Positions 3,678-36,074 of a DNA stretch of 64,000 bases are shown here, piece after piece. Position numbers and translations under genes: made by a program. Every line of letters starts with the position of its first letter. Positions within the stretch are counted from its first letter, which is position 1. The stretch spans positions 124,001 to 188,000 of the forward strand of contig NZ_JAJIRN010000002.1 of the NCBI RefSeq assembly GCF_025717515.1, in the 5' to 3' direction. Under the pieces are notes generated by a model. It was not told where the DNA came from and ran no database searches. It was given only the letters and a program-made list of their open reading frames with translations. The DNA comes from Roseateles oligotrophus. GTDB taxonomy: Bacteria > Pseudomonadota > Gammaproteobacteria > Burkholderiales > Burkholderiaceae_C.

Positions 3678-3701
3678 AAGCAATCAATTACATGATTGCT
3701 T
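3678..3701. promoter_or_regulatory. Palindromic operator candidate, site 1 (DeoR)
   Basis: A perfect 9-bp inverted repeat, AAGCAATCA / TGATTGCTT, separated by 6 bp. Its core is AATCA-N6-TGATT. It lies between the divergent DeoR and rhaD genes, where a DeoR-family repressor is expected to bind. The same core recurs at 3733, 29188 and 35885. Assignment to this DeoR protein is inference. Confidence 0.7.
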
Positions 3702-3732
3702 TCAGCTCAGCGGCATCCGCTGCCGCGCAATC

Positions 3733-3748
3733 AATCATCCTTTTGATT
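3733..3748. promoter_or_regulatory. Palindromic operator candidate, site 2 (DeoR)
   Basis: A second exact AATCA-N6-TGATT, 51 bp downstream of site 1 (core to core) and 165 bp before the rhaD start. Paired sites about five helical turns apart would suit cooperative binding or looping by a DeoR-type oligomer. Confidence 0.65.
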
Positions 3749-3913
3749 TAACGCATAGGGCCGAACCACGCCGGTGCATTTGGGCTGACACTCTCGTTCG
3801 GCAGCCCTGATAGCGGGCCTGCAGGCGGCCCAGCAAGGACTTTCTGACCCATTCCGGCCAATCCGAAATTGCAGCGATGGCCGCCGCTTCCAGAATTCAA
3901 CTTAGGTGAAACG

Positions 3914-6022
3914 ATGACTGCATTTGTTCAAGCCCAACCCGGGGAATCGATCAACTCTTTGTGGGACGATGCGCGGGCCGCGGCCATGAGTGAGCCGGAG
4001 CTGCTGCTGTATCGCTCGAATCTGCTCGGCTCCGATCTGCGCGTCACCAATTTCGGTGGTGGCAATACCTCGGCCAAGGTTCAGATGAATGATTATCTGA
4101 CAGGTGAAACCAGCGAAGTGCTGTGGGTCAAGGGTTCCGGCGGCGACCTCGGCAGCATCAAACTCGAAGGTTTCTCTACTCTTTATATGGACAAGCTGCG
4201 CGCATTGAAGGCACGGTATCGTGGCCTCGAATTCGAGGATGAAATGGTCGATTACTTGCCGCACTGCACCTTCAATCTGAATCCGCGCGCAGCCAGTATA
4301 GACACCCCGCTGCACGCCTATATCAACCGTGCCCATGTCGACCATATGCACCCGGACGCCATCATCGCGATTGCGGCCTGCGCCAATAGCAAGACACTGA
4401 CGCAAACCATCTTCGGCGGCAAGCTCGGCTGGCTGCCCTGGCAGCGGCCCGGCTACGACCTGGGCCTGAAGCTTGAAGCCTTGTCGTGCGACCAGCCCAA
4501 GCTGGACGGCATCATCCTCGAAGGCCATGGTCTGTTCACCTGGGGCGACACCGCCAAGTCCTGCTATGAAACCACCTTGGCCATGATTCGCCTGGCAGAA
4601 GAATGGCTGCATGAGAACAGCAAGCAGCCCGCCTTCGGCGGGCCTAAGTCCACCGTCTTGGCCGCGGATGTGCGCGCCGAACTGGCCGCCCGCCTGATGC
4701 CGGTGCTGCGCGGCAAGATCAGCCAAGATGAGATCAAGCTCGGCCATTTCGACGACAGCGCCGCCGTGCTGGAGTTTGTCTGCAGCCAAGACCTGACCGC
4801 TTTGGCCGCGCTGGGCACCTCCTGCCCCGACCATTTCCTGCGCACCAAGATCCGCCCGCTGGTGCTGGAGCTGGATCCGGCCGCGCCAGACTTTGATGCC
4901 TTGTTGGCAGGCCTGGACGCCCAGCTGACCGCCTACCGCGCCGACTACACTGCCTACTACGAGCGCTGCAAGCGCGCCAACAGCCCGGCTGTGCGCGACG
5001 CCAACCCCATCATCTATCTAATCCCCGGCATCGGCATGCTGTCATTTGCCAAAGACAAGGCCACCGCCCGCATCGCCGCCGAGTTCTACATCAACGCCAT
5101 CAATGTGATGCGCGGCGCCAATGGGGTCGACCAATATGTAGGCTTGGCCGAGCAGGAAGCCTTCAATATCGAATACTGGTTGCTTGAGGAAGCCAAGCTG
5201 CAGCGCATGCCCAAGCCCAAAAGCCTGGCCGGCCGCGTCGCCCTGGTGACCGGCGGCGCCGGCGGTATCGGCCAGGCCGTGGCCCGCCAATTGCTCAGCG
5301 AAGGCGCTTGCGTGATGTTGACCGACATCGACGCCGAGGCCCTGGCCGCCGCCGAAATGAACCTGCTCAAGGGTTCCAGCCGAGACAACGTCGCCAGCTG
5401 CCGCGCCGACATTACCACCGAGGCCGATATCGAAGCGATCGTGCACGCCACTTCGCTGCGTTTCGGCGGCCTTGACATCCTGGTTTCCAACGCCGGCATT
5501 GCTTCCGCCGCCAAGCTGGAAGACACCACGCTGGAGATCTGGCAGCGCAATCAGAACATCCTGGTGACTGGCTACTTCCTGGTCAGCCGGGCCGCCTTCC
5601 GCTTGATGAAGCTGCAAAAGACCGGCGGCAGCATGGTGTTCGTGGCGAGCAAGAACGGCCTGGTGGCCTCGGCCGGCGCGTCGGCCTACTGCACGGCCAA
5701 GGCAGCCGAGATCCATCTGGCCCGCTGCGTCGCATTGGAGGGCGCCGCCCATGGCATCCGCGTCAACGTCGTCAACCCCGACGCCGTGATCCGCGGCTCG
5801 CGCATCTGGGACGGCAAGTGGAAAGAAGAGCGCGCCGCGTCCAACAAAATTGGCTCCGATGACATCGAAGAGTTCTACCGCCAACGCAGCATGCTCAAGC
5901 TCAGCGTGCTGCCCGAGGACATCGCCGAGGCGGTCTACTTCCTGGCCAGCGACAAGGCGGGCAAGAGCACCGGCAACATCATCAACGTCGACGCCGGCAA
6001 CGCCGCGGCGTTCACACGTTAA
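3914..6022 (+). CDS. rhaD: Bifunctional rhamnulose-1-phosphate aldolase / short-chain dehydrogenase
   Basis: A 702-residue fusion. The N-terminal half is a class II aldolase that splits L-rhamnulose 1-phosphate into DHAP and L-lactaldehyde; its zinc-binding HVDHMH cluster is at residues 141-146 and a GGGNTS motif is near 48. The C-terminal part (from about 437) is a Rossmann short-chain dehydrogenase with TGGAGGIG near 444 and the catalytic YxxxK (YCTAK) near 591; it probably oxidises lactaldehyde to lactate. This fusion is known in non-enteric rhamnose operons. The ATG at 3914 is chosen because AGGTGA precedes it; an in-frame ATG at 3869 lacks such a site. First gene of the operon, 14 bp before rhaI. 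Confidence 0.95.
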   Translation: MTAFVQAQPGESINSLWDDARAAAMSEPELLLYRSNLLGSDLRVTNFGGGNTSAKVQMNDYLTGETSEVLWVKGSGGDLGSIKLEGFSTLYMDKLRALKARYRGLEFEDEMVDYLPHCTFNLNPRAASIDTPLHAYINRAHVDHMHPDAIIAIAACANSKTLTQTIFGGKLGWLPWQRPGYDLGLKLEALSCDQPKLDGIILEGHGLFTWGDTAKSCYETTLAMIRLAEEWLHENSKQPAFGGPKSTVLAADVRAELAARLMPVLRGKISQDEIKLGHFDDSAAVLEFVCSQDLTALAALGTSCPDHFLRTKIRPLVLELDPAAPDFDALLAGLDAQLTAYRADYTAYYERCKRANSPAVRDANPIIYLIPGIGMLSFAKDKATARIAAEFYINAINVMRGANGVDQYVGLAEQEAFNIEYWLLEEAKLQRMPKPKSLAGRVALVTGGAGGIGQAVARQLLSEGACVMLTDIDAEALAAAEMNLLKGSSRDNVASCRADITTEADIEAIVHATSLRFGGLDILVSNAGIASAAKLEDTTLEIWQRNQNILVTGYFLVSRAAFRLMKLQKTGGSMVFVASKNGLVASAGASAYCTAKAAEIHLARCVALEGAAHGIRVNVVNPDAVIRGSRIWDGKWKEERAASNKIGSDDIEEFYRQRSMLKLSVLPEDIAEAVYFLASDKAGKSTGNIINVDAGNAAAFTR

Positions 6023-6036
6023 GCAGGATACAAAAC

Positions 6037-7332
6037 ATGGACTACAAAATCGACACCGGCCTAGTGGCCGAACATAACGCCAAATTGCAGGGTGATCTGG
6101 ACGCTGACTATGCCGCCCTGGGCGGCATGCTGGCCCGCCGTGGCCAGGACATCGAGCAAATCACCACACTGGCCCAGACCTTCGCCGTGGCCCTGCCGAG
6201 CTGGGGCGTGGGCACCGGCGGCACCCGCTTTGCCCGCTTCCCCGGCCTTGGCGAGCCGCGCAATGTGCAAGAAAAGCTCGACGACTGCGCCGTCATCAAC
6301 CAGTTGACCCGAGCCACGCCGGCCGTGTCCCTGCATTTCCCCTGGGACAAGCCGAGCGACCCGTCCGCGCTGCGCGCGCAGGCCGCCGCCCTGGGCCTGC
6401 ACTTTGATCTGGTCAACTCCAACACTTTCCAGGATCAGGCCGGCCAAGCCCATACCTACAAGTTTGGCAGCCTGACCGCCAATGGCGCGGCCGCCCGCGA
6501 ACAGGCCGTTGCCCACAATATCGACTGCATCGAACTCGGCCGCGCACTGGGCTCCAAGGGCCTGACCGTGTGGGTCGGCGACGGCGCCAACTTCCCCGGC
6601 CAGAGCAATCTGCGCGGGGCGCTGGAGCGCTACCTGGACAGCATGAAGTCCATCTATAAGGCGCTGCCGGACGACTGGCAAGTCTTCATCGAGCACAAAT
6701 TGTTCGAGCCGGCCTTCTACGCCACAACCATCGCCGACTGGGGTACCAGTTTTGCCTGCGCGACCGAGCTGGGCCCCAAGGCCAAATGCCTGGTTGACCT
6801 GGGCCACCACGCGCCCAACACCAATATCGAAATGATCGTGGCGCGGTTGGCCCAATTCGGCAAGCTCGGAGGCTTCCACTTCAACGACAGCAAGTACGGC
6901 GACGACGATCTGGACTCGGGCTCGATCAACCCCTTCCAGCTCTTTCTGGTTTTCAACGAACTGGCCGATGCCGCGCAGCGCGAAGGTGCAGCCTTCAAGC
7001 CCTCTTACATGCTGGACCAGTCACACAACGTGACCGACCCGATTGAGAGCCTGATGAGCAGCGCCAGCGAGGTGCAACGCGCCTTCGTGCAGTCGGCCCT
7101 GGTCAACCGCCTGGAACTGGCTGCCCATCAGGAAAGCAATGATGTGTTGCCGGCCGCGCAGGCCCTCAAGCGCGCCTTCCGCACCGACGTCAGCGCCATC
7201 CTGGCGATGGCGCGCGCACGCTCGGGCGGCGCCATAGACCCAGTCGCCTGCTACCGCACCGCCGGCTACCGCGCCAAGGCAGCAGTCGCTCGCCCGGCCA
7301 AGGCAGGCGCCAGCGGCAGCGGCATCGTTTAA
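6037..7332 (+). CDS. rhaI: L-rhamnose isomerase, RhaI type
   Basis: Interconverts L-rhamnose and L-rhamnulose in the cytoplasm. The 431 residues form a xylose-isomerase-like TIM barrel. Metal-binding candidates are the Glu of IEHK (about 219), the Asp of VDLGHH (about 254), the His and Asp of FHFND (about 282-285), and the DDD run just after. The family GGTRF segment is near residue 60. This is the Pseudomonas stutzeri/rhizobial type, not the E. coli RhaA type. An AGGA precedes the ATG. It follows rhaD by 14 bp and precedes the GH28 gene by 24 bp in the same operon. Confidence 0.95.
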   Translation: MDYKIDTGLVAEHNAKLQGDLDADYAALGGMLARRGQDIEQITTLAQTFAVALPSWGVGTGGTRFARFPGLGEPRNVQEKLDDCAVINQLTRATPAVSLHFPWDKPSDPSALRAQAAALGLHFDLVNSNTFQDQAGQAHTYKFGSLTANGAAAREQAVAHNIDCIELGRALGSKGLTVWVGDGANFPGQSNLRGALERYLDSMKSIYKALPDDWQVFIEHKLFEPAFYATTIADWGTSFACATELGPKAKCLVDLGHHAPNTNIEMIVARLAQFGKLGGFHFNDSKYGDDDLDSGSINPFQLFLVFNELADAAQREGAAFKPSYMLDQSHNVTDPIESLMSSASEVQRAFVQSALVNRLELAAHQESNDVLPAAQALKRAFRTDVSAILAMARARSGGAIDPVACYRTAGYRAKAAVARPAKAGASGSGIV

Positions 7333-7356
7333 GAAGAAGATCGCGCCGCACCGGCA

Positions 7357-8733
7357 ATGATGAATCCTCAGTTCCGCGCCGAGGACTTCGGCGCTGTCGG
7401 TGACGGCCTGACGCTGAACACCGCCGCGATTCAACACGCCATCGACGCCGCCGCACTGGCCGGCGGCGTTCTGGCGTTCTCGCCCGGCGTCTATCTGACA
7501 GGCTCGCTCTTCCTCAAAAGCGGCATCACGCTGCAGCTGGACTTGGGCGTTACGCTGCGCGGCTCGCAAGACCTGACGGACTACCCGCTGCTGCCGACCC
7601 GGATCGCCGGCATCGAGATGGTCTGGCCGGCCGCGCTGCTCAATGTCTGCGAGCAGGCCGATGTGCGCATCCAGGGCGCAGGGCAGATTGACGGCGACGG
7701 CAAGATCTTCTGGGACAGCTACTGGACGCTGCGCCGCGCCTACGAGCCGCGCGGCCTGCGCTGGGCCTCCGATTACGACGCCCAGCGGCCGCGCCTGCTG
7801 CAAGTTTTCAAGTCGACCCGCGTGTCGATAGGCGACGGTTTGCTCCTGCGCCGCTCGGGCTTTTGGACCCTGCATATCTGCTATTCCAGCGAGGTGACAG
7901 TCAGCCGCATCACCATCCGCAACAACGAAGACGGGCGCGGCCCGTCGACCGATGGCATCGACATCGACTCAAGCAGCCGCGTGCTGATAGCGCATGCCGA
8001 CATCGCCGTCAACGACGACGCCATCTGCATCAAGGCCGGCCGCGACGCTGACGGCCTGCGCGTCGCTCGGCCCACCGAGGACGTGCTGATCCGCGACTGC
8101 ATCGTGCGCGCCGGCGCCGCCGGCCTGACCTTCGGCAGCGAGACCTCCGGAGGGTTTCGAAACATCGACGCCAGCCGCATCACGGTGCTCAGCGCAGTGC
8201 CGGTCGGCATCCTGTTCAAGTCGGCGCCGACGCGTGGCGGCTTCGGCCATGATCTGCGCCTACAGGACTTCAGGCTGGTCGATGTGGCGGTGGCGTTGCG
8301 TATCACGATGAATTGGAACCCGGCCTATAGCCTGGCCAGCCTACCCGCAGAGCTGGTTGACCTGCCACCGCATTGGCGTGTGCTGACAAGCAAGGTGCCG
8401 CCCGCGCAGGGTATGGCGCGGCTGCGCGACGTCCACATCAGCCGCCTGCAGGCCAGCGGCGTGCAGACCGCGTTCGAGGTCGACGCCTACCCCGACGCGC
8501 CGCTGCAGGGCTTTCGCTTCAGCGAGCTGGACATCAGCGCACAACAAGGCGGCCATATCCGCGACGCGCAGGACTGGAAGTTCGAGCATTGCCGGCTTGA
8601 CTTGGGAGAGCGCGTCAGCCTGGCCGCCGCCGACGAGGTGCAAGGCCTGCCCGAGGGCAGCTGGCAAGTCGTCAGCAGCCTGGCGGCCCGTGACGTATCG
8701 GCGCTGAGCTTTGAAGAACAAGACAAGCAGTGA
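7357..8733 (+). CDS. Glycoside hydrolase family 28 (exo-polygalacturonase-like), no signal peptide
   Basis: A 458-residue right-handed beta-helix of GH28, which hydrolyses alpha-linked galacturonic acid in pectin. The N-terminal FGAVGDG repeat is at about residue 10. The catalytic aspartates sit in STDGIDID (about 197-204) and NDDAICIKAG (about 220). The usual GHG site reads GSETSGG (about 260) and the RIK site is a KSAPTRGG, a pattern I associate with exo-acting bacterial members. There is no signal peptide: the protein starts directly in the catalytic fold. Together with its place between rhaI and rhaM, this suggests cytoplasmic hydrolysis of imported oligomers. Two adjacent ATGs (7357, 7360) are equally possible. 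Exact specificity (GalA or Rha-GalA) is unknown. Confidence 0.88.
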   Translation: MMNPQFRAEDFGAVGDGLTLNTAAIQHAIDAAALAGGVLAFSPGVYLTGSLFLKSGITLQLDLGVTLRGSQDLTDYPLLPTRIAGIEMVWPAALLNVCEQADVRIQGAGQIDGDGKIFWDSYWTLRRAYEPRGLRWASDYDAQRPRLLQVFKSTRVSIGDGLLLRRSGFWTLHICYSSEVTVSRITIRNNEDGRGPSTDGIDIDSSSRVLIAHADIAVNDDAICIKAGRDADGLRVARPTEDVLIRDCIVRAGAAGLTFGSETSGGFRNIDASRITVLSAVPVGILFKSAPTRGGFGHDLRLQDFRLVDVAVALRITMNWNPAYSLASLPAELVDLPPHWRVLTSKVPPAQGMARLRDVHISRLQASGVQTAFEVDAYPDAPLQGFRFSELDISAQQGGHIRDAQDWKFEHCRLDLGERVSLAAADEVQGLPEGSWQVVSSLAARDVSALSFEEQDKQ

Positions 8734-8750
8734 TGACGGAGACAAAACAA

Positions 8751-9089
8751 ATGACGAGTAGCAGCAGCACCCATGCTTTCAAGATGAAGCTCAAGCCCGG
8801 TCATGTGGCTGAGTACAAAAAGCGCCATGACGAGCTCTGGCCCGAGCTGGCCGAGGCGCTGCGCGGCGCCGGCATTCATGACTATTCGATCTTCCTGGAC
8901 GAAGAGACGCTGACGTTATTCGCCGTTCTGAAGCGCCGGTCGGGTGCGGAGTTCGCGGCCGCCTTCGACACGCTGGCCGAGCTGCCAGTGATGCGGCGCT
9001 GGTGGGACTTCATGGCGCCGCTGATGGAGGTTGAGCCCAACAACAAGCCGCTGCAACAGGCCTTGCCTTCGATGTTCCATTTCGAATGA
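8751..9089 (+). CDS. rhaM: L-rhamnose mutarotase
   Basis: Interconverts alpha- and beta-L-rhamnose, feeding the anomer used by rhamnose isomerase. It is 112 residues, the usual size for RhaM. Recognisable features are FKMKLKPGH at the start, the HDELWPEL helix, the IFLDEETLTLF strand, and the RRWWDFMAPLME segment carrying the family tryptophans. I start it at the ATG at 8751 because GGAG (8738-8741) is well spaced; an in-frame ATG at 8733 overlaps the GH28 stop and would add six residues. Its stop overlaps the next start by ATGA. Confidence 0.92.
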   Translation: MTSSSSTHAFKMKLKPGHVAEYKKRHDELWPELAEALRGAGIHDYSIFLDEETLTLFAVLKRRSGAEFAAAFDTLAELPVMRRWWDFMAPLMEVEPNNKPLQQALPSMFHFE

Positions 9090-10750
9090 TGGCCAGGCTC
9101 CTGCTGGCGCTGCTTTGGCTCCTGCTGTCACGGCCGGTAATTGCGCAAGACGCAATGCGCCCGGCCCTGCTGCTGACCGGCCGCACCGAGGCCCTGTACT
9201 TGTCCGGTCGCTGGACCTATTCCAAGGACCTCTATCGCACTGGCCTGAACGACATCAACGGCTGGTTCGCCAAGTCACGCATGCAACGCCATCGTGACAT
9301 CGATATTGCGACGCAAGAGGCCAAAGGCGGCACCGGCTTCTTCGAGTTCGACCTCGACCGCGGCCCGGCGGTGGAGATTCCGGGGGCCTGGAATACCGCC
9401 GCTCAGGAGTTGCGCTACTACGATGGCCTGATCTGGTTCCAGCGCAAGTTCGACGCCGCCCCCAAGCCCGGCCAACGCAGCTTTCTGCGCTTCGAGGCCG
9501 TCAACTACGGCGCCCATATCTATCTGAACGGCAAGGAGGTCGGCCGGCACGAGGGCGGCTTTACGCCTCTTGTACTGGAAGTAACGGGGCAGCTGCGCGC
9601 CAGCGACAACCGCCTGGTCGTCGGCGCCGACTCCAGGCTTGACGGTCAAACCATTCCCGGCGAGATCACCGACTGGGATCTGTACGGCGGCATCACGCGG
9701 CAGGTCAAGCTGATCCACACGCCGCCGACCTTCATCGACGACGCGACGTTGCGCCTGACCGAGGTCGGCCACCTGAGCGGCAGCCTGCAGCTGAATGCCC
9801 CGCAGGCTGCCAACCAGATGGCACGTATCCACATTGCCGGCCTGAGCCTGCAGGTCGATGCGCGCACCGACGCCCAAGGCGGGGCCCGCTTCGACCTCGC
9901 CGCACCGGCCGCGCTGCAGCGCTGGTCGCCGGAGACGCCGACGCCGTACAAGGTCGAGTTCTCGGCCTGCAGCGATCGCATCCAGGACCGCATCGGTTTG
10001 CGCACCAGGGCCATCAAAGGCAGCGAGATCCTGCTCAATGGCAATCCTATTTTCCTGCGCGGCGTCTCGCTGCACGAAGAAGAGCTGGGCGCCAACCCGG
10101 CGCGCCGCATCGACACGGCCGCCGCCCGCGCCCTGCTGACCGAAGTCAAGCAAAGTTTGAACGGCAATTACGTGCGGCTGGCCCATTACCCGCACAGCGA
10201 AACCATGCTGCGTCTGACCGACGAGTTGGGCCTCCTGGTCTGGAGCGAGTTCCCGGTCTACTGGACGGTCGATTGGGACAACCCAGCCGTGCTGCAGAAG
10301 GCGCGGACCATGCAGGCCGAGACGCTATACCGCAACCGCGCCGCCCTGGTGCTGTGGGGCATCGGCAACGAGACCCCGGTGGCCGAGAACCGCACGCGCT
10401 TTCACGCCGCACTGGCGGCCGACAAGCCGCTGATTGCCTCTGAGTTCGGCGCCGACGCGCTGGCCGGCCATCACGACAGCGGCAGCCCGCCGCGCAAATG
10501 GTCGGAGGAATTTCAGTCCCACTACTACCGCGCGACGCTGAGAACTCTGGCGACCAGCCCGAATCTGCGCGGTATGTCGCCCTGGGTGCTGAAGGACTTC
10601 CGTTCGCCGCGCCGCGAGCATCCGATTTTCCAGAACGGCTGGAACCGCAAGGGTCTGCTGTCTGAGACCGGGCAGCGCAAGCTGGCCTTCGAGGTACTCG
10701 CCAAACCCTTCGAGGTACTCGCCAAACATTACCGAGAAATTTCCCTATGA
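9086..10750 (+). CDS. Exported GH2 hydrolase of beta-glucuronidase type, internally shortened
   Basis: A 554-residue GH2 protein with a signal peptide (about residues 1-21). The order is jelly-roll sugar-binding domain, immunoglobulin-like domain, then TIM barrel. Acid/base Glu is in WGIGNE (429) and the nucleophile is in SEFGAD (453). The C-terminal NRK (520-522) matches the N-x-K motif that recognises the uronate carboxylate in beta-glucuronidases, so a uronide is the likely substrate. Oddities: the two glutamates are only 24 residues apart, against 91 in E. coli GusA (413 and 504), so a barrel segment seems missing; and a 21-bp tandem repeat near the 3' end duplicates FEVLAKP. Activity is uncertain. 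It overlaps both neighbours by ATGA. Confidence 0.85.
   Translation: MMARLLLALLWLLLSRPVIAQDAMRPALLLTGRTEALYLSGRWTYSKDLYRTGLNDINGWFAKSRMQRHRDIDIATQEAKGGTGFFEFDLDRGPAVEIPGAWNTAAQELRYYDGLIWFQRKFDAAPKPGQRSFLRFEAVNYGAHIYLNGKEVGRHEGGFTPLVLEVTGQLRASDNRLVVGADSRLDGQTIPGEITDWDLYGGITRQVKLIHTPPTFIDDATLRLTEVGHLSGSLQLNAPQAANQMARIHIAGLSLQVDARTDAQGGARFDLAAPAALQRWSPETPTPYKVEFSACSDRIQDRIGLRTRAIKGSEILLNGNPIFLRGVSLHEEELGANPARRIDTAAARALLTEVKQSLNGNYVRLAHYPHSETMLRLTDELGLLVWSEFPVYWTVDWDNPAVLQKARTMQAETLYRNRAALVLWGIGNETPVAENRTRFHAALAADKPLIASEFGADALAGHHDSGSPPRKWSEEFQSHYYRATLRTLATSPNLRGMSPWVLKDFRSPRREHPIFQNGWNRKGLLSETGQRKLAFEVLAKPFEVLAKHYREISL
10688..10729 (+). repeat. 21-bp tandem duplication in the GH2 3' end
   Basis: Nineteen bases beginning TTCGAGGTACTC at 10688-10706 recur at 10709-10727, a period of 21 bp. 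The frame is kept and the protein reads FEVLAKP-FEVLAKH. It looks like a recent slippage or duplication event. Confidence 0.9.
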
Positions 10751-13503
10751 CCCCCTCAGCTTTTTCTCGCCGCAGTTTTCTCCAGACCGGCGCCGCCGCC
10801 TCGCTAACGTCCATCGTCCCCGCCGCCAACGCGATCACCGCCAACCGTGGCACCGCGATCCCGCCGGTAACCGACACCACAATGCACTGGCTCGACGGCA
10901 AGGCGCCCCTGCGCTTCGAAGGTGCGACCTTCGGCGTGCCCTGGCCGCGCGGCCAGTTGCGGTCTACCGCCAAGGCGCTGGACTTCAAGCTGGCCAAGCA
11001 CCCGATTCAATCCTGGCCATTGGCCTTCTGGCCCGATGGTTCGCTGAAGTGGACGGCCCATGCGCTGGCCGGCGGGGTGCCGGCCGGTGAGCTGAAGCTG
11101 GAGCAAGGCAAGCCGGTAGCGGGCGGCTTGAGCGTCGAGCAATCAGCCACGCAAATCACCATCAGCGCCGATGACTTGGTCTGGACCGTGCCGACCAGCG
11201 GCGCCGCGCTGATCAAGGAGGCGACCCGCGCCGGCCGCGTCACGCTGAAGAACCTCAAGCTCATGGCGCTGCGCCAGGACGGCACCGAGCCCGAACTGGA
11301 CGGCAAGACCGCCCGCCAGTCCTTCACCAGCCGGGTCACTAGCGTCACTGTCGAGCAGCAAGGCCCTGTGCGCGCGGTGCTCAAGCTCGACGGTACGCAC
11401 AGTGCGAATGGTCAAGAGAAGGGCCACGACTGGCTGCCGTTCTCGGTGCGCCTGTACTTCTATGCCGGCGCGGAAAGCGTGCGCATCGTCCACAGCTTCG
11501 TCTGGGACGGTGACCCGGCCAAGGACTTCATCGCCGGCCTCGGTGTCACCGCGCAAGTGACTATGAGCAATGCCACGCACGACCGCCATGTGCGCTTCTC
11601 AGGCGAAGGCGTGGGCGTGTGGGGCGAGGCCGTGCGCCCCATCACCGGCCTGCGCCGCGACCCAGGCCAGGCTTATAAGGATGCGCAGGTCGCGGGCAAG
11701 GCCCTGCCCGCACTGAGCGGCATGGCCAAGACCGTGCAGGACGGCCTGAAGTGGATCCCCGAGTGGGGCGACTTTTCGCTCTCGCAGCTGAGCGCCGACG
11801 GCTTCACCATCGCCAAGCGCACCGCGCCCGGCCATGCCTGGATCGCCTCCAACGGCGGCAGCCGCGCCAAAGGGCTGGTATTTGCCGGCGGCGCCTCGGG
11901 CGGCGTGGCGCTGGGGCTGAAGGACTTCTGGCAGCGCGCCCCGGTGCGGCTGGACGTACGCGGCGCAGCGAATGATCTGGCCGAAGTGACCGCATGGCTT
12001 TACTCGCCCTCGGCCCCGGCGATGGACATGCGCTCCTACCGCTCGGCCGGCGAGATGGACACCTTCGCGGAGCAGATCGAAGGCCTCAACATCACCTACG
12101 AGGACTACGAGCCGGGCTGGGACAGCTCCGTCGGCGTGGCCCGCACGTCCGAGCTGCAGCTCTGGGTGTTGGCCGCCACACCGTCGCACCAGGTGTTCTC
12201 GGACATGGCCGAGCAGGTCGCCAACCCAGCGCGGCCGGTGGCGACGCCGCAGCGCCTGCACGCGGCGGGTGTGTTCGGCGACTGGGACCCCGCAGACACC
12301 AGTACGACCCGCACGCCGGCGCGCCAGCTGATCGAGGACCGCATGACGGTGCAGCTTGACCAGTACCTGAAGGAGGTCGAGCAGCACCGTTGGTACGGCT
12401 TCTGGAACTACGGCGACGTGATGCACGCCTACGACGCCGACCGCCATATGTGGCGCTACGACATCGGCGGCTACGCCTGGGACAACTCCGAGCTGTCCAC
12501 CGACCTGTGGCTCTGGTACAGCTATCTGCGCACCGGCCGGGCCGACATCTTCAAGCTGGCCGAGGCGATGACCCGCCACACCGGCGAGGTTGACGTCTAC
12601 CACGCAGGCCCCTTCAAGGGCTTCGGCACCCGCCACGGCCTGCAGCACTGGTCCGACTCCAGCAAGCAGCCGCGCGTCTCTAACGCCGCCTACCGACGCA
12701 TCTATTACTACCTGACCGCCGACGAGCGGGTCGGCGACCTGATGCGAGAGCTGCTGGACTCCGACGCCGATCTGCACAAGGTCGACATCTCACGCAAACT
12801 GACCCAAAAGCCCGGCGAAGAGGCGGTACCACCGCCGATGCCGGGCCTGGTTGGCGCCTCGTTTGGCACTACCTGGGGTTCCTGGGTCGCGGCCTGGCTG
12901 ACCGAGTGGGAGCGCACCGGCGACCTCAAGTGGCGCGACAAGATCGTCGCCGGCATGCAGAGCATCGGCGCGCTCAAGCACCGCTGGTTCGCCTCCGCCG
13001 CACCGTACGACCCCAAGACCGGCAAGTTCGCCGGCCCGGGCGACAAGCCCGCCATCTCGCACCTGAATGCCGTGTTCGGCGTCATCGAAATGAGTTCGGA
13101 ATTGCTCCCCCTGGTGGACGCGCCGGCCTACCGCCGCGCTTGGCTGGAGTATTGCCGCTACTACAACGCGCCCAGGCAGGAGCTGTTCGAGTTGCTTGGC
13201 AAAGACCTCGGCAAACCGAATCTCGCCGACACCGGCTCGCGCATGACGGCCTATGCCGCCTTCCACGAGCGCGACCGTGCGCTGGCCTTGCGGGCCTGGC
13301 GCGAGTTCTTCTCGTCAAGCGCGCTGAAAGGCGACGGCAAGACGCGGCACATCGGCGGCGTGGCTGTGATGCGGCCGCTGATCGAGCAGCCTGGCATCAG
13401 CACCAATGCCTCGGCGCAATGGGGGCTGGCGGCGATCCAGAACCTGGCCCTGGTGGGCGACTCGCTGGACGAGGCGGCCAAGGCAGCCGGGCTGGTCGAG
13501 TGA
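10747..13503 (+). CDS. PcRGLX/YetA-like protein, probable exo-rhamnogalacturonan lyase (PL26-like)
   Basis: A 918-residue exported protein with a twin-arginine type leader (SRRSFLQ, residues 6-12, hydrophobic stretch to about 29). The region after it (FGVPWPRG near 57-64, then WPLAFWPDGSLKW near 90-103) is what I recognise as the N-terminal RIFT-barrel of the PcRGLX/YetA family; a central beta-sandwich and a C-terminal alpha/alpha-toroid (from about 530, rich in Trp and Tyr) complete the usual three-part layout. Penicillium PcRGLX removes unsaturated Rha-GalA disaccharides from RG-I ends. A Tat leader suggests folding, perhaps with a metal, before export. Translationally coupled to the GH2 gene. 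Family fairly sure, reaction inferred. Confidence 0.8.
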   Translation: MTPSAFSRRSFLQTGAAASLTSIVPAANAITANRGTAIPPVTDTTMHWLDGKAPLRFEGATFGVPWPRGQLRSTAKALDFKLAKHPIQSWPLAFWPDGSLKWTAHALAGGVPAGELKLEQGKPVAGGLSVEQSATQITISADDLVWTVPTSGAALIKEATRAGRVTLKNLKLMALRQDGTEPELDGKTARQSFTSRVTSVTVEQQGPVRAVLKLDGTHSANGQEKGHDWLPFSVRLYFYAGAESVRIVHSFVWDGDPAKDFIAGLGVTAQVTMSNATHDRHVRFSGEGVGVWGEAVRPITGLRRDPGQAYKDAQVAGKALPALSGMAKTVQDGLKWIPEWGDFSLSQLSADGFTIAKRTAPGHAWIASNGGSRAKGLVFAGGASGGVALGLKDFWQRAPVRLDVRGAANDLAEVTAWLYSPSAPAMDMRSYRSAGEMDTFAEQIEGLNITYEDYEPGWDSSVGVARTSELQLWVLAATPSHQVFSDMAEQVANPARPVATPQRLHAAGVFGDWDPADTSTTRTPARQLIEDRMTVQLDQYLKEVEQHRWYGFWNYGDVMHAYDADRHMWRYDIGGYAWDNSELSTDLWLWYSYLRTGRADIFKLAEAMTRHTGEVDVYHAGPFKGFGTRHGLQHWSDSSKQPRVSNAAYRRIYYYLTADERVGDLMRELLDSDADLHKVDISRKLTQKPGEEAVPPPMPGLVGASFGTTWGSWVAAWLTEWERTGDLKWRDKIVAGMQSIGALKHRWFASAAPYDPKTGKFAGPGDKPAISHLNAVFGVIEMSSELLPLVDAPAYRRAWLEYCRYYNAPRQELFELLGKDLGKPNLADTGSRMTAYAAFHERDRALALRAWREFFSSSALKGDGKTRHIGGVAVMRPLIEQPGISTNASAQWGLAAIQNLALVGDSLDEAAKAAGLVE

Positions 13504-13526
13504 CTATCACGGCTGGCAGTAGACCT

Positions 13527-15367: not shown

Positions 15368-15436
15368 ATGCCGATGTGCATGCAACTGATGGCCGAGCAA
15401 TGATGCGACACCAGCGGCATTTCAAGCCCCATACCG

Positions 15437-18136: not shown

Positions 18137-18331
18137 CGCTTGAGTTTCCTGTTTGACCGCGTGGCCGCCACGGGTTCATCGGCGCAAGCCGCGCGGCTGA
18201 TTCTCACATCGCCACGATGCCAATACGAACTCGATACGAGCGACATCATGATTGTTTGCAAGCCCCTTTCAGCCCCGCTCACTCCTACACTCACGCAGCC
18301 CGAAAACCCCACCAAGTTGCCCGACCTCAGC

Positions 18332-25793: not shown

Positions 25794-25830
25794 CTAAAAA
25801 AAACACCGGCCCCGTTGCCAGGGCCGGTGA
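25794..25830 (-). terminator. Intrinsic terminator of TonB receptor 1
   Basis: A perfect 9-bp stem CACCGGCCC (25804-25812) / GGGCCGGTG (25821-25829) with an 8-base loop. On the minus strand it is followed by eight or more T (the A run at 25796-25803), so it terminates the receptor transcript. There is no T run on the plus side, though the stem may also slow DUF4861 transcripts. Confidence 0.9.
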
Positions 25831-25885
25831 TCAAAAGCTAGGCGATCCCCCAACGGGATCACCCGGACAGACACTCGTCAATCAA

Positions 25886-28800: not shown

Positions 28801-29077
28801 CGGTGCCGGCCTCGCGCTTGCGGCCAATCGCCGAGGCGATCGACTTGCGGGTGCCGACGATGCGGATCGTCTCCAGCGTCGTGTCAGCCTCCTTGGTCTT
28901 GGCGTTGGCCTTGAGATCGGCGGCGGTTGTCAGGTCGGCGGCCTCCTTTTCGGTCGGCGCGGTCTCCGGCGCTGCCTGCGCCATCAGGGCGCCGTTGGCA
29001 AACAAGGCGGCAATCGCCACCGCCGTACCGCGCCGCAGGCGCATAGCCGGCGTGCTGCGGCCAGTATTTTTTTTCAT
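25886..29077 (-). CDS. TonB-dependent receptor 1 (Caulobacter/Xanthomonas type)
   Basis: Outer-membrane active transporter, 1063 residues. A signal peptide (about 1-36) is followed by a linker, then a plug domain (about 94-205; SIVAEDIGQFPDKNVGEAL and a Gly-rich loop near 150-160), then a 22-stranded barrel ending in Tyr-Lys-Tyr, which suits outer-membrane insertion. There is no SusD partner, as is normal in Proteobacteria. Context says it imports RG-I oligomers. GGAG lies 9 bp before the ATG. About 110 bp upstream is a copy of the AATCA-N6-TGAT palindrome shared with receptor 2 and the rhamnose promoter. Confidence 0.95.
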   Translation of the reverse strand: MKKNTGRSTPAMRLRRGTAVAIAALFANGALMAQAAPETAPTEKEAADLTTAADLKANAKTKEADTTLETIRIVGTRKSIASAIGRKREAGTVTDSIVAEDIGQFPDKNVGEALSRITGVQLSREFGEGSQVSIRGVEPDLNRIEINGASVLGTGGGGGRGAELRELASELIASIDVVKGSTADLTEGGIGGTVQITTRKPFDFKERTIATTISGESASSRGGVQPRASLLLADKFFDGRLGLMGNFVYDNVLTRNDYARNTSWNLLRDWDFAADKTLTSMDPAVAAVNARTGCTAAAGLSANQITDCNRQWFDYAPRISRYGIWTRDHKRSSAELTAQFKINDALNVYSSYQANTQAQRLNDRNYGTDLIATTRLSTPGTAPVYNMATGVPSRAGTCTAIGANTTPAGMVVNKHHVDEYVVGGCNFVAGAGGQGAFSTAARDFELDIKSKYATAGFNYKGQGLSIDGMLVDSSSKYSSESNSVILTQNAPGLKVSLDSQRLPSFTFPAGSDPESASSYVQAQLQYRPSETDNKEKQAKLDLKYDLDKGIFSKLWVGVQARDASSEQYNGGGYLASNGANLGSSADDVAVLGANINQTLVYDPFFTGTAQRAPDAQGFINSNFSTRYIDAAGMAALVQTVRERSPGKFFDGYSGVSGLPSSWMAPSYKDAKVFFDTSNFNHGNVREAKGSDGLLYPQLPAFKVEEKIKSAYLRMDFDAELFGSEISGNFGGRYTETHDTSTGSYSYRVRRAASNAAGYSDFVVSNSIVSVDNKYSDFLPSFNAATWLMPNKLVARVGLAKVMARPAINLLAPNATCTEGSNSPQFNGDGSADDCTAGNPDLEPYRATKTDFSLEYYPGRDSQLSLALFQNDIDTYVRNNVKRENVDLFGNGKLFDVTQPVNGRGATTRGLELTARTAFTFLPGWLGGFGGDVNYTRMDYEYSAGNELLNILDGTVLPYPGMSKNSYNLALWYDEGQFNGRIAYNYRDAYYTGGNDVSGNPNFTDKTGYLDAKIQYRMSKNFTFSLEGKNLTDQAQTTYSGDLYRVNELAFSGRRYFASVSYKY

Positions 29078-29326
29078 CTTTCATGTCTCCAAGATTTTGT
29101 CCAACGCAGGGGCTCAATATGTCTTCGACGGCCCGCTTGAACAAAGTCTAGGTGCACTTCTCCGGCCAAAACTGGCCGCCACGAAAGAATCAAATCGGTG
29201 ATCAATCCAAGCCAGCGTAAACCCTGACAAGACAGCAAAATCCAAGGGAAAATACTGATAAAGCAGTCATGTCTGATTCAAATATCAACTGTTGACAGGG
29301 CTTTCGCTCAATTTTTTGAGCGAGTA
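29078..29326 (-). promoter_or_regulatory. Promoter region of TonB receptor 1
   Basis: Holds AGTCTAG at 29145-29151 (TAGACT on the coding strand, a -10 candidate) and an AATCA-N6-TGATC palindrome at 29188-29203, exactly 36 bp apart. The same two elements with the same spacing precede receptor 2. A perfect 8-bp hairpin, TCGCTCAA / TTGAGCGA (29304-29323), lies just after the stop of the upstream GH43-like gene and may end its transcript although no clear T run follows. Confidence 0.65.
29188..29203. promoter_or_regulatory. Palindromic operator candidate before TonB receptor 1
   Basis: AATCA-N6-TGATC, one base off the perfect palindrome, inside a longer block GAAAGAATCAAAT that is identical before receptor 2. 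Probable DeoR target by similarity to the rhamnose promoter sites. Confidence 0.65.
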
Positions 29327-31866: not shown

Positions 31867-31905
31867 CGCTATCTCCTGCACTGCATCGCCAGGACTTACG
31901 CAAAA

Positions 31906-31937
31906 CGCCCCCAAGCAGCTGGCACTGCTTGGGGGCG
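31906..31937 (-). terminator. Hairpin after TonB receptor 2
   Basis: A perfect 13-bp stem, CGCCCCCAAGCAG (31906-31918) pairing with 31925-31937 around a 6-base loop. On the minus strand it is followed by GTTTTG. It lies 25 bp after the receptor stop and 40 bp before the Sel1 start, so it should lower or end read-through into the Sel1 operon. Confidence 0.8.
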
Positions 31938-31961
31938 GCTCCGGCGCACTAGAGCCGAAAC

Positions 31962-34900
31962 TTACTGCGGCGTGCGAATATTGAAGCCGACCATATAGCG
32001 GCGGCCGCTGTAGCCGTCGCTGTAGACGCTCGGAATGCCGTCGGCATAGTCCTGGTAGCCACCGGTCGTGGTTTGGGTGCGTTCGCCGGTCAGGTTGCGC
32101 ACATCGGCAAACAGCTCCAGGCCGTTCTTGAAGCGGTAGGCGAGCTTGGCGTCAATGAACGAGGTGCCCTTGCCGAAGATAGGTGCGCCCGGGTTGTAGG
32201 GCAGACGCCAGCTGGACGTGCCGACCGACGGGTAGTTGTTGACGCCGACACTGTTGCCGGTGTTGGGCGAGAAGGTTTGATAGCGCGGGGCCACCACTTG
32301 CAAAGCCACGCGTGCCGAGAAGCCGCCGTCGTCGTACCACAGCGAGGCGTTGTACGAGTACTTGGGCTCATTGACGATGGGCAAGATGTCACCACTGATC
32401 AAGTCCAGCCTTGGCTCACCCTGGGTGGACCGGACGCGGCTGTAGTTGGCATCCAGGCCGGTATAGCGCAGGATGGACGGCAAAAAGTTGAAGGCGGTCT
32501 TCATGCCGAACTCAAGCCCGCGGCGGGTCGACGGGTCCTGATTGCCCCATTGGTTGAACGAAAACTCGAGGTCGGACAGGGGCTGGCCGGTGACCGGGTC
32601 TAACGCATTGCTGCCCTGGAACACCTTGACGTCTTGGCGCGCAATGCCCAGCGTCGGGGCGCCGATGATGCCTTTTTGGCGGAAGCCGGCGACGGTGAAC
32701 ATGGTGTCGCGGGTGGCAAACCATTCCAGCGACAGATTTTGGTTGACGTTGGTCTGCGGCTTCAACCCCGGGTTGCCCATGGTGCCGGAGCAGCCCTGGT
32801 CGGTCAGCGTGCCGTCGCCCTCCCCGGCACCTTCAAAAATGACCTGGCTGTTGGTGCAGATGACGGTGGTGCCGCCCGAGGGCAGCAGCTTGGAGATCGG
32901 TGGCCGGGCGATGGTGCGGCCCAGGCTGTAGCGCAGGGCCAGCTTGTCGGCGATGGGCCACAGCGCCAAGTTCAGCGAGGGCAGCACATCGGTGCTCTTG
33001 TCCTTGAGCGAGGTGTTGGTGCTGACCATCGTGGTGGTGGTGCCGCCCACTGCAGTCGGGTTGAGCGGGTCGAAAGTCGCGGTCTTGCGGACCGAGCGGA
33101 AGGACAAGTAGCCTGTGCCTTCGACCTCGGTGCGCACCACGCGCGCACCGAAGTTGCCGGTCAGCTCCAGGCCAAAAGGCAGGTTGTCAATCTCGAAGTC
33201 CGTCATCAGATAGGCGGCGGAGGTCTTCTCCTTGAAGGTGGAAACCGGCTGGGCATAGACCTTGCCGTCACTGGCCTTGCATTCGCGCATGCAGTCCAGG
33301 CGGACCGGGATGCCGGCAGTCTGGAACAGCTTGTCGACGTCAAGCTGATTCCACCCGTTGGTCAGCGTCGACGGACGATCCTTGGAGCCGGCGTAGAACT
33401 GGCCGGCTGGCGTCTGCGTCATGGTCTGGCGTACCAGGTCCTCATACTGCGCCTGGGTCAGCGTGTTGGTGCCGGCCACGACCCCAGGCGTGCCGGCGTT
33501 GAGCTGATTGCTGGGTACATAGCCGTAGGCGCAGGGCTGGCCCGGCGCCGCGCCACCCACGACCTTGGAGCCCGGGGTGTTCTCGCAGCCGATCACATTC
33601 CAGCGCCCGTTGACCGAGGGCAGATAGACACCGGGGACGAAGCCCGCTTGACCAAAAGTGCCGACCGGATCCTTGACAGCGCCGCCGCCGCCCCACCAGG
33701 TCGAGCCGCCGGTGTCGCGCAGATTCAGGCCACCCTTCAGCGACGTGAAGAAGGGCAGTTTGTTGCGCAGGTCGTAGTCGATATCCAGCTTGCCGGTCTT
33801 CTCGCTGCTTTCGCTGTCAAAGGACCGGATGACCTGCAGCAGGCTATTGTTGGTGTACTGTGCCCGCTGCGCCGCCGTGAAGGCCGGCACGGTGGTCGGA
33901 TTGGTGGCGCTGGCCGCGAAGATTGATGTGGCGACGGCCGGATTCAGCTGCGCATATTTGGCGAAGTTCAGCTGGTCATTGCTGCTGCCGTCGGGCAAGG
34001 TGAAGGCCCAAAGGCCGTTCGGCTGCAGCGCAAAGTTGCCGACTCCGTAGTTGTAACCAAAGGCCGCGCGGCGGTCATAGCGCTGCGCGGTCGACTCGGT
34101 ACTGCCGCCCAAGAACTGCGCACGCAGGCGACCGTTGCGATATTCGCCGCCCATCACCATGGTCTTCGAGTCGGTGTCTATGGTGCTGAAGATGGTGTCG
34201 GTGTTGTAGCTGCCGTTGGCCGTCGAGTAACTCGTCACGTGGTGAGACGAGTCAACCGTGTAGCCGGGCAAAATATTGGTCGTTGCCCCCTGGATCAAAG
34301 GCTGGTTATTGGCGCGCCAGGAGTAGGTATTCGGCAGCAGCAGGGTTGGAAAAGGGCTGGTGGGCGAGACCGTGCGGACATTGCTGCTTGCGTTGTCGAC
34401 AAAGGTGCCGGCGCCGTTGAAGCTCGTGTTACTGCCCACACCCAGAAAACCGACGACGTCTTCGACCGTCCGGGTGGCTGCGCTGTATTTGCCGTACACC
34501 GTCAGGTCATCGCTGACCTTGAAGTCCAGGCGGATGTCGCCGCCATTGCGCTTGTCGTCCTGACTCTTGAAGTTATAGCGAAAACCGGCGGTATTCGAGG
34601 GCGTGTAATCGTTCCATTGATTCAAACAAGTCGACTGCTCGTTCTGGCGCTGCGTGTACGCCGCCGTGCGGCCGGCAGCGGCCATCGATGCGGTTTGAGC
34701 AGCGCTCAGATTAGGGAAGGCGGCGAAGCAGGCCGCCTTGCTTTGCGCGGCAGCCGATTTGGTCAGCAGCTCCGTGATTGAAGAAGAGTTGAAATTGCCG
34801 CCGCCCGTCAACGGCGTGGCCACCATCGGGTTGTTGATGGTGTCGCCGGCGGCGGTAGCCGGGTTGAAGGTAAAGGTCTTCTCGGGCGAGTTGTCAAAGT

Positions 34901-35780
34901 CGGCCAGCCGCACCAGGCCCTGCTGATTGTTGCTGCCGCCCTGCGAGATGCCATGTTGCTCGCTGCTGTAGTGGGACTTGTTCAGATTGACGATCACGCC
35001 CAGGCGGCTGTCCAGGAACTTGTCGGCCAGCACCAAGTTGAAATTGGGCGTGGTCTTTTTGTTCAGATCGCTTTGCGTGGCGGCCACGCGCAGCGAGTAA
35101 TAGGGTTTCTTGAAGTCCAGGCCGGTGCGGGTCGTGATGATGACGCCACCACCCAGCGAGCCCTCGGTCATCGCGGCGGTGGAGCCCTTGACGATGTCCA
35201 CACTCTTGATCAGATCGGAGGACAGCTCACGGTACTCGGTGCCGCGACCGTCACCTCCGCCCAGCAAGTCGGTGCCGGCGCCGGAGCGCACGCCCATGCC
35301 GTCAAGCTCGACGCGGGTCAGCTCCGGCCCGTTGCCACGGATGGAAACACTGGTGCCCTCGCCGAAATCACCCCGGTCCAGCGCCACGCCAGCGATGCGC
35401 GAGATCGCCTCGCCGATATTGCGATCGGGAAAGGCCCCGACGTCTTCGGCCACGATGGAGTCAACCGCCGTGGCGGCGGTGCGCTTGCGCTCGATGCTGG
35501 AGCGCTGCGAGGCGCGTGCGCCTATCACCAACACAGCGTCCAGCTCGGCCGTGATCGCCGGCGCGGCAGCATCGCCCTTCTTGGCGGCAGCGCTTGCGGC
35601 ATCCTTTTTGAGCGCAGCATCCTCGTCCTTGGCCGGCGCGCTCGCGGGCTTAGGCGTCTCAGCTGTTGCTGCGGCTGTTTGCGACCAGGCGGGGCTGCCA
35701 GCGAACAAACACGCAATCGCCAACGCAATACCGCTTTGCTGGCGCAGGGCCAGCTCAAGGCGATTTGTTTTCTTATCCAT
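31962..35780 (-). CDS. TonB-dependent receptor 2, large
   Basis: Outer-membrane receptor of 1272 residues, longer than the roughly 1000 usual for this type. A signal peptide (about 1-33) is followed by an Ala/Lys/Asp-rich linker (about 35-75), a plug domain (SIVAEDVGAFPDRNIGEAI near 107; Gly-rich loop near 160-170), then a barrel with long extracellular loops that account for the extra length. I start it at the ATG at 35780, five codons after another ATG, because GGAG sits 9 bp before it. Likely RG-I oligomer import. Its promoter matches that of receptor 1. Confidence 0.95.
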   Translation of the reverse strand: MDKKTNRLELALRQQSGIALAIACLFAGSPAWSQTAAATAETPKPASAPAKDEDAALKKDAASAAAKKGDAAAPAITAELDAVLVIGARASQRSSIERKRTAATAVDSIVAEDVGAFPDRNIGEAISRIAGVALDRGDFGEGTSVSIRGNGPELTRVELDGMGVRSGAGTDLLGGGDGRGTEYRELSSDLIKSVDIVKGSTAAMTEGSLGGGVIITTRTGLDFKKPYYSLRVAATQSDLNKKTTPNFNLVLADKFLDSRLGVIVNLNKSHYSSEQHGISQGGSNNQQGLVRLADFDNSPEKTFTFNPATAAGDTINNPMVATPLTGGGNFNSSSITELLTKSAAAQSKAACFAAFPNLSAAQTASMAAAGRTAAYTQRQNEQSTCLNQWNDYTPSNTAGFRYNFKSQDDKRNGGDIRLDFKVSDDLTVYGKYSAATRTVEDVVGFLGVGSNTSFNGAGTFVDNASSNVRTVSPTSPFPTLLLPNTYSWRANNQPLIQGATTNILPGYTVDSSHHVTSYSTANGSYNTDTIFSTIDTDSKTMVMGGEYRNGRLRAQFLGGSTESTAQRYDRRAAFGYNYGVGNFALQPNGLWAFTLPDGSSNDQLNFAKYAQLNPAVATSIFAASATNPTTVPAFTAAQRAQYTNNSLLQVIRSFDSESSEKTGKLDIDYDLRNKLPFFTSLKGGLNLRDTGGSTWWGGGGAVKDPVGTFGQAGFVPGVYLPSVNGRWNVIGCENTPGSKVVGGAAPGQPCAYGYVPSNQLNAGTPGVVAGTNTLTQAQYEDLVRQTMTQTPAGQFYAGSKDRPSTLTNGWNQLDVDKLFQTAGIPVRLDCMRECKASDGKVYAQPVSTFKEKTSAAYLMTDFEIDNLPFGLELTGNFGARVVRTEVEGTGYLSFRSVRKTATFDPLNPTAVGGTTTTMVSTNTSLKDKSTDVLPSLNLALWPIADKLALRYSLGRTIARPPISKLLPSGGTTVICTNSQVIFEGAGEGDGTLTDQGCSGTMGNPGLKPQTNVNQNLSLEWFATRDTMFTVAGFRQKGIIGAPTLGIARQDVKVFQGSNALDPVTGQPLSDLEFSFNQWGNQDPSTRRGLEFGMKTAFNFLPSILRYTGLDANYSRVRSTQGEPRLDLISGDILPIVNEPKYSYNASLWYDDGGFSARVALQVVAPRYQTFSPNTGNSVGVNNYPSVGTSSWRLPYNPGAPIFGKGTSFIDAKLAYRFKNGLELFADVRNLTGERTQTTTGGYQDYADGIPSVYSDGYSGRRYMVGFNIRTPQ

Positions 35781-36074
35781 TATTGGTATCTCCATATTTT
35801 GATGAACGAAGTCCGCATGCTTGGTTGGGCTCGTTCGGCGCAGTCTAGAGGCGCCTCCTTGATTGCAAATAATTGCAAAGAAAGAATCAAATATATGATT
35901 GCCACCCATCAGCAAAAACCCTTTATCCGCCCCTCAGGCCGGAGGTTTTGTCAGTATTAATACCAGGACTGCATTCCAGTTTAGATATAGCTCGAACTAT
36001 TATTGATATAGCTCGCAGGCAGGCGCCAAAAATGCTGCGTCGCAATATTTCGCAGCAATATGGGCATGGCTGTC
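35781..36074 (-). promoter_or_regulatory. Promoter region of TonB receptor 2
   Basis: AGTCTAG at 35842-35848 and the palindrome at 35885-35900 are 36 bp apart, as before receptor 1. Between them is an AT-rich stretch with TTTGCA on the coding strand 16 bp before TAGACT, a possible -35 box. The distal half (about 35940-36060) is AT-rich, has a repeated GATATAGCTCG near 35983 and 36004, and separates this promoter from the end of the upstream PL22-like gene. Confidence 0.65.
35885..35900. promoter_or_regulatory. Palindromic operator candidate before TonB receptor 2
   Basis: Exact AATCA-N6-TGATT within GAAAGAATCAAAT, the same block seen before receptor 1. It lies 105 bp upstream of the start codon. 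Confidence 0.7.

Follow-up and report, generated by a model that had tools for sequence, protein, structure and literature searches.

The subject of this analysis is a 64,000-nucleotide stretch of the genome of Roseateles oligotrophus (contig NZ_JAJIRN010000002.1, positions 124,001 to 188,000, here called the window), in which one inverted repeat recurs before genes for rhamnose catabolism, before two TonB-dependent receptor genes (TBDT1 and TBDT2) and before a pair of genes of the rhamnogalacturonan lyase family PL4 (PL4a and PL4b). The repeat is very probably the operator of a DeoR-family regulator, a proposed RhaR encoded at 2538-3437, that would unite rhamnose catabolism with the receptor and lyase genes. 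The first-pass annotation had suggested that one regulator couples rhamnose catabolism to polymer uptake, an idea that is supported by the sequence and that can be extended to the cleavage genes headed by PL4a. Each operator would be made of half-sites CRMTCA and TGAKYG in inverted order around a fixed spacer of six bases, with two operators in the window, and three in some relatives, lying between the deoR and kinase genes and the rhaD operon, and more of them upstream of the two receptor genes and the PL4 genes. The regulator most likely keeps the rha, receptor and PL4 promoters down until an inducer frees the DNA. The inducer would be L-rhamnulose or its phosphate, made from the incoming rhamnose, and on release the catabolism of rhamnogalacturonan I (RG-I), its uptake across the outer membrane and the cleavage of its backbone would rise together.

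The repeat is readily found as the palindrome AATCA-N6-TGATT, with exact copies at 3682-3697, 3733-3748 and 35885-35900 and no fourth in the window. Allowing one mismatch adds 29188-29203, 34607-34622 and 62559-62574, the last two of which are coding by codon score. The exact trio, 29188-29203 and a copy before the PL4 genes at 39409-39424 all score as non-coding, in agreement with the earlier statement that three exact copies and a one-base variant are intergenic. A chance match had been put well below one per 64 kb, and 100 dinucleotide shuffles give a mean of 0.02 per window and a largest count of 1. The 5.76-Mb genome has 11 exact places in all, three of them those of the window, against none for a reversed control pattern. 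Six of the eight places beyond the window lie inside open reading frames (ORFs) of at least 150 amino acids and were taken as coding (L001-L004, L009 and L010; L, G and C numbers are our handles for loci, genomes and contigs), with the codon score covering three of these six, including L002 and L003, rescored as L135 and L143. L008 is inside a 98-residue ORF that scores as coding, and L011 overlaps just a 345-residue ORF which did not score as coding. The matches L001, L002 and L003 (G000, C1) and L009 (C23) fall within long ORFs, and the flanks of L001-L003 are alike, these three ORFs apparently being a repeated gene family.

AATCA had been named as the half-site, and as an invariant half-site it was ruled out, as in relatives CAATCA, CGCTCA, CGATCA and CACTCA interchange at the same places with the spacer constant at six; the half-site is better written as the degenerate CRMTCA. 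The copy at 39409-39424 reads CGCTCA-ATACTT-TGATT on the minus strand and is an exact match to the degenerate pattern, located at 163409-163425 of contig C12 of G000. It had been described as a weak copy preceding the PL4 genes; the position is right, but the weakness holds only in comparison with the strict pattern, and at 20.6 bits the copy scores above both receptor sites (18.6 and 16.5).

These scores come from a half-site matrix (consensus CRMTCA, six-base spacer) built on 67 sites within 600 bp upstream of deoR at 52 loci outside the window, from which the window and every receptor or PL4 promoter were excluded; sites were called at 14 bits. The 52 loci come from a scan of named genomes, have deoR products 53-93% identical and belong mostly to Roseateles, Pelomonas and Paucibacter and to the Duganella, Massilia and Pseudoduganella group. 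A separate survey of 399 genomes of the family found a deoR ortholog in 13, the window's genome included (E 1e-50), and six genomes are in both sets (G221=L061, G151=L064, G195=L067, G402=L068, G343=L073 and G070=L103). Examination at length covered the deoR-anchored loci only.

At this threshold the window has seven matches, at 3679, 3730, 29185, 29303, 35882, 39406 and 62556, of which 62556 is coding and 29303 is doubtful. In 20 first-order Markov sequences the mean was 0.4 matches per window, and 200 column-permuted matrices gave a mean of 0.43 and a maximum of 3 on the window itself, with none reaching 7. Spacers other than six, over the range 0-12, produced 0-2 matches in the window, and in 0.99 Mb from which the 700 bp before deoR were excluded a spacer of six gave 36 matches, against 2-11 for spacers of 3-5 and 7-9. 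The inverted repeat at 29303-29324 could be a second operator or a terminator hairpin, and its assignment is doubtful.

The matches fall largely on a common set of targets. In 63 regions totalling 1.53 Mb, with six genomes present twice, there are 181 matrix matches, 17 coding and 164 non-coding, and of the latter 127 are rha/deoR sites, 16 precede PL4a, 10 precede TonB receptors (counting TBDT1, the doubtful 29303, a distant receptor of G151 and G151 again as L064), two precede GDSL/PD40 genes and nine lie elsewhere, one of these before a sodium:solute symporter gene (L078) and eight before nothing recognised. With the pattern CRMTCA-N6-TGATT, eight deoR-bearing genomes have 81 distinct places, or 5 to 22 per genome, and a reversed control has none in any of the eight. 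By hand-entered labels 24 of the 81 are regulon promoters (one tentative), 13 are other non-coding places and 44 are coding, so the motif is not equally common at unrelated loci. No convincing target was recognised for the non-coding pattern places L121, L124, L153, L163, L167, L169, L172, L179, L181 and L182; L170 repeats L169 and was grouped with them, and L183 and L184, at contig ends, were judged by codon score only. The possibility that the element is generic to TonB receptors was also ruled out, given 5-22 places per genome against 22-55 receptor-like candidates in a loose listing of the same eight genomes.

It is in the divergent region between deoR and rhaD that the arrangement is most regular. 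The two genes are divergent within 1 kb at all 52 named loci and in 9 of the 13 family genomes, the other four having deoR beside GH28-like and rhaM genes. Sites of at least 14 bits lie between deoR and rhaD at 50 of the 52 loci (two at 40, three at 10), a count that is partly circular as most of these loci trained the matrix. The spacing between site I and site II is exactly 51 bp in 39 of the 50, and much of the Duganella/Massilia group has a weaker or a third site 27 bp beyond. On the deoR side, the distance between TTGAC and the site I centre is 17.5 bp at 49 of 50 loci, 46 of which also have TANNNT 17 bp further along. On the rhaD side, the last scored site and TTGAC are 17.5, 44.5 or 45.5 bp apart at 35 of 50 loci, and 44.5 equals 17.5 plus 27, which is where the weaker third site lies. 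In some members of the lineage the operator centre is 17.5 bp from the -35 hexamers of both divergent promoters. The remaining 15 loci, nearly all of the Roseateles group, have no TTGAC at those rhaD-side distances, and xACACT, tried as a firm -10 of rhaD in this group, was dropped and retained as a weak assignment only. Many loci have, 11 bp away from site I, an additional half-site (CAATCA-N5-CRMTCA), which coincides with the -35 of deoR.

The receptor and lyase promoters, none of which trained the matrix, carry the same site. Orthologs of TBDT2 have a site of at least 14 bits in 8 of 12 genomes (G000, G221, G402, G195, G070, G151, G343 and G245), and TAGACT follows the 22-mer by 34-35 nt in seven of these eight promoters, the eighth (G402) having it behind a second, proximal copy. 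Orthologs of TBDT1 are found in 5 of the 13 genomes (E 1e-100), all five with a site of at least 14.5 bits within 420 bp; TBDT1 is on a different contig from deoR in G070, G402 and G151 and about 750 kb from it in G195. The four TBDT1 promoters other than the window's have no TAGACT at that distance. Within the window it is the choice of ATG 35781 as the start of TBDT1, rather than the upstream TTG 35915, that puts the operator outside the gene. An extra receptor gene in G245 (L165, Plug domain) also has a site. Duplicates removed, 12 of the 15 genomes for which the PL4a start and upstream DNA are available have a site before the gene, and a further locus, L074, has a sub-threshold 12.2 bits at the same position. 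In 13 of the 15 PL4a promoters listed, which include the window's and three genomes twice, TANNNT comes 19 nt after the 22-mer; the two exceptions belong to a single genome present twice, whose imperfect second copy takes the 19-nt position. On these grounds PL4a would be a full member of the regulon. The site is thus conserved in relatives, and one site is kept before orthologous targets across several genera.

The site also travels with deoR. A rhaD gene is present in 32 of the 399 family genomes (E 1e-150), and among the 30 loci examined the rhaD promoter has the site wherever deoR is adjacent (9 of 9 genomes, their best sites scoring 19.5-26.0 bits; six of the nine were in the training set, with G000, G245 and G425 outside it). 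It has none in the four genomes whose deoR is in another part of the cluster, nor in the 17 that have no deoR at E 1e-50, where the highest score is 5.7 bits. TBDT2 occurs in 11 of the 399 genomes (E 1e-200), all 11 of them among the 13 with deoR, which linkage alone also predicts. The sites, their conservation, their common targets and their association with deoR can all be read from the sequences themselves. From them we infer that the DeoR protein binds the sites and represses, that its inducer comes from rhamnose and that the substrate is RG-I.

How the regulator acts, and whether it is the right one, are the points at which other explanations have to be weighed. That AT-rich palindromes of intergenic DNA recur by chance or composition is scarcely credible; exact copies do occur within coding sequence of the genome, but the shuffled expectation, the empty reversed control in eight genomes and the excess at a spacer of six all speak against it, and conservation at deoR-rhaD, PL4a, TBDT1 and TBDT2 across genomes contradicts it. 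It is also improbable that the palindrome is recognised by an unlinked regulator, perhaps a LacI-, TetR- or AraC-type protein, and that deoR is a mere neighbour and target. Such a regulator would fit the shape of the site, as inverted repeats of 16 bp are common operators in other regulator families. In the same direction, the DeoR-type RhaR motifs described in PMC3870299 are direct repeats of 10-11 bp, whereas here the half-sites of the dominant element are inverted and 6 bp apart. This difference also counts against a DeoR-type RhaR as the reader of the site, as do several other observations. The rhaD contrast is confounded by ancestry, with eight of the nine deoR-adjacent genomes sharing a rhaD at least 84% identical to that of the window. 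A sister clade of four genomes (G334, G426, G234 and G307; deoR 68-69% identical) has no site of at least 14 bits at rhaD or TBDT2, the TBDT2 receptor of G307 being just 39% identical, and G234 and G307 have none before PL4a. Given this clade, coupling of rhamnose genes to the receptor is not universal. Two alphaproteobacterial deoR-rhaD loci (deoR 53-55%) also have no site. Against an unlinked regulator, the site at rhaD tracks deoR linkage (9/9 against 0/17), and G425 keeps one site of 20.7 bits with deoR just 49% and rhaD 65% identical; it is outside the training set and is a useful exception to the confounding by ancestry.

A more serious question is whether the same regulator and sites work by activation, either everywhere or at the receptors and PL4a with repression of rha and deoR, which we regard as possible but doubtful. 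E. coli FucR is reportedly a DeoR-family activator. The sites stand upstream of core promoters at fixed distances (17.5 bp to the TTGAC of deoR, 19 nt to the TANNNT of PL4a and 34-35 nt to the TAGACT of TBDT2, all eight if the proximal copy of G402 is counted), and the predicted centres, about -42 at PL4a and about -57 at TBDT2 with no -35 evident by eye, are compatible with an activator and so weigh against repression at these promoters. The geometry at rha/deoR suits a repressor, and that at PL4a and TBDT2 also suits an activator. A dual role, considered on its own, appears unlikely: DeoR would repress rha and deoR, with a half-site over the -35, and would activate the receptor and PL4 promoters, where the site would replace a missing -35 or sit just above it and allow contact with RNA polymerase. 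If true, a single sugar signal would raise catabolism by release and outer-membrane uptake by activation. Near-consensus -35/-10 pairs at deoR, and at rhaD in the Duganella/Massilia group, need no activation, and the half-site overlaps the deoR -35. Repression by the DeoR protein is favoured because the divergent promoters look strong unaided and because negative regulation is reported for the DeoR-type RhaR proteins of Rhizobium and Chloroflexus (PMC3870299).

Table 1. Predicted operators, promoter elements and genes of the window (window positions; bit scores are from the matrix).
Feature	Positions	Strand	Details
Operator site I, AGCAATCA-attaca-TGATTGCT	3679..3700	.	predicted; 24.6 bits, matrix from other genomes
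Operator site II, ATCAATCA-tccttt-TGATTTAA	3730..3751	.	predicted; 26.0 bits; 51 bp from site I
deoR promoter, -35-like TTGACC	3667..3672	-	predicted; overlaps extra half-site TGATTG, 11 bp from site I
deoR promoter, -10-like TAATGT	3644..3649	-	predicted; 17-bp spacer
rhaD promoter, -10-like GACACT	3787..3792	+	predicted; 38 nt past site II; weak assignment
Operator before TBDT2	29185..29206	.	predicted; 18.6 bits; centre about -57 if TAGACT is the -10
TBDT2 -10-like TAGACT	29145..29150	-	34 nt past the 22-mer; 34-35 nt in relatives
TBDT2, TonB-dependent receptor	25886..29077	-	Pfam Plug
Weak match, TTCGCTCA-attttt-TGAGCGAG (CGCTCA-ATTTTT-TGAGCG)	29303..29324	.	14.4 bits; between GH43 gene and TBDT2
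Operator before TBDT1	35882..35903	.	predicted; 16.5 bits
TBDT1 -10-like TAGACT	35842..35847	-	34 nt past the 22-mer
TBDT1, TonB-dependent receptor	31962..35781	-	Pfam Plug and barrel; translation
Operator before PL4a, AACAATCA-aagtat-TGAGCGCC	39406..39427	.	predicted; 20.6 bits; centre about -42 if TAAATT is the -10
PL4a -10-like TAAATT	39447..39452	+	19 nt past the 22-mer
PL4a (rhamnogalacturonan lyase family), PEP-CTERM-motif protein, PL4b	39512..43766	+	Pfam RhgB_N, fn3_3, CBM-like
DeoR-family regulator, proposed RhaR	2538..3437	-	Pfam DeoRC 5.4e-39, HTH_DeoR 1.4e-14
FGGY-family sugar kinase	1159..2541	-	Pfam FGGY_C_2 8.2e-62; all NCBIfam kinase models below cut-off
rhaD, bifunctional rhamnulose-1-phosphate aldolase/dehydrogenase	3914..6022	+	NCBIfam NF006189, TIGR02632 above cut-off
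rhaI, GH28-like, rhaM, GH2, PcRGLX-like, hydrolase, GH43, DUF6250	6037..16222	+	after rhaD, short gaps or overlaps

The regulator beside the first two sites had been called DeoR, which its HTH_DeoR and DeoRC domains confirm, and its likely start is the ATG at 3428. Among the DeoR models of NCBIfam the highest score is to another member of the family, UlaR (NF010034), yet at 192.6 bits it is below the curated cut-off of 244, and the protein does not qualify as an UlaR equivalog. A sequence search of the PDB with the regulator gave weak matches only, to the DeoR sensor-domain entry 7l6l (E 0.0004) and to one unrelated chain. The FGGY-family gene, which overlaps the end of deoR by 4 bases, is from its context probably the rhamnulokinase, and rhaD and the same-strand genes downstream of it would be co-transcribed. 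Farther along the window are genes for PL11, a GH88-type and a GH35 protein, TBDT2, TBDT1, a GDSL-lipase-family protein and the two PL4 proteins, families that fit an RG-I locus. Between the PL4 genes the PEP-CTERM motif scores slightly below the Pfam cut-off. The PL11 and BNR_4 ORFs (16232-18136 and 17468-19729) are on opposite strands and overlap by about 670 bp, and the true start of BNR_4 probably lies farther downstream.

The distribution of deoR appears to be uneven. At E 1e-60 it was found in none of the 17 further genomes searched in the window's genus, a result that suggests a cassette of patchy distribution. G010 (L211, of the window's genus) and G117 (L209, of the genus of G221) have a rhaD only about 66% identical, no deoR at E 1e-50 and no site; within a genus, two rhamnose cassettes apparently substitute for each other. 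In the sister clade (L196, L198, L200 and L214, of G426, G307, G234 and G334 respectively) rhaD is divergent from TBDT2, and by eye the region between them has a different AT-rich palindrome of the type GATAAGC...GCTTATC, which suggests that another regulator couples rhaD and TBDT2 there. The site also occurs in six loci of the Duganella group (L083 4326, L090 4366, L095 4342, L096 4353, L106 4385 and L108 4362), and in the four that were inspected (L083, L095, L096 and L108) TTGACA and a -10-like hexamer come after it, where convergent ORFs have their 3' ends. This promoter-like element runs antisense to an ORF, which in L083 is a 3-keto-disaccharide hydrolase, and perhaps marks an unannotated RNA.

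Comparison with known systems draws on two papers, PMC3870299 and PMC3878776. The former describes rhamnose regulons in Chloroflexales, Enterobacteriales, Actinomycetales, Rhizobiales, Bacillales, Bacteroidales, Lactobacillales and Thermotogales, and the word TonB is absent from its text. The nearest likeness is to the RhaR of Chloroflexus and Roseiflexus, also of the DeoR family, encoded among rhamnose genes, with a site upstream of its own gene and an operator of repeated hexamers; the Chloroflexus protein is a repressor released by L-rhamnulose. By analogy the inducer in Roseateles may be L-rhamnulose rather than L-rhamnulose 1-phosphate. The tested Chloroflexus/Roseiflexus operator is however a tandem repeat of four TCGAAA sites, where Roseateles has the inverted CRMTCA-N6-TGAKYG, and it controls rha operons, whilst in Roseateles the receptors and lyases also carry the predicted site. 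Rhizobium leguminosarum RhaR is likewise a DeoR regulator of divergent rha operons with rhaDI, an alternative kinase and a mutarotase, but there the rhamnogalacturonide genes are under a separate LacI-family regulator, RhiR (PMC3870299). RhaS of Erwinia chrysanthemi (rhiTN) and the DeoR-family RhaR of Thermotogales resemble the proposed regulon in that one rhamnose regulator serves both mono- and oligosaccharide genes, although RhaS is an AraC-type activator and, in the text available, no outer-membrane receptor is named for either regulon (PMC3870299). TonB-type receptors within rhamnogalacturonan loci under dedicated control are known in Bacteroides thetaiotaomicron, but with separate regulators, the rhamnose regulon being a single operon under an AraC-type RhaR and the rhamnogalacturonan loci being under hybrid two-component systems (HTCS; PMC3878776). 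In titles and abstract openings of the Burkholderiales literature, subscription papers and RegPrecise aside, such a regulon was not found. Judged on sequence, the predicted regulon is new, as is the form of its operator, within a kind of system already known.

If correct, the proposed regulon provides a testable operator and a list of targets for the use of rhamnogalacturonan by Roseateles, Pelomonas, Paucibacter and their Duganella and Massilia relatives. Sites at unlinked receptors may aid the prediction of function, so that the extra receptor of G245 (L165), for example, can be proposed to serve the same polymer. The regulon would also be an example from outside the Bacteroidetes in which outer-membrane receptors for a polymer appear to be keyed to a cytoplasmic sugar intermediate by way of a monosaccharide regulator.

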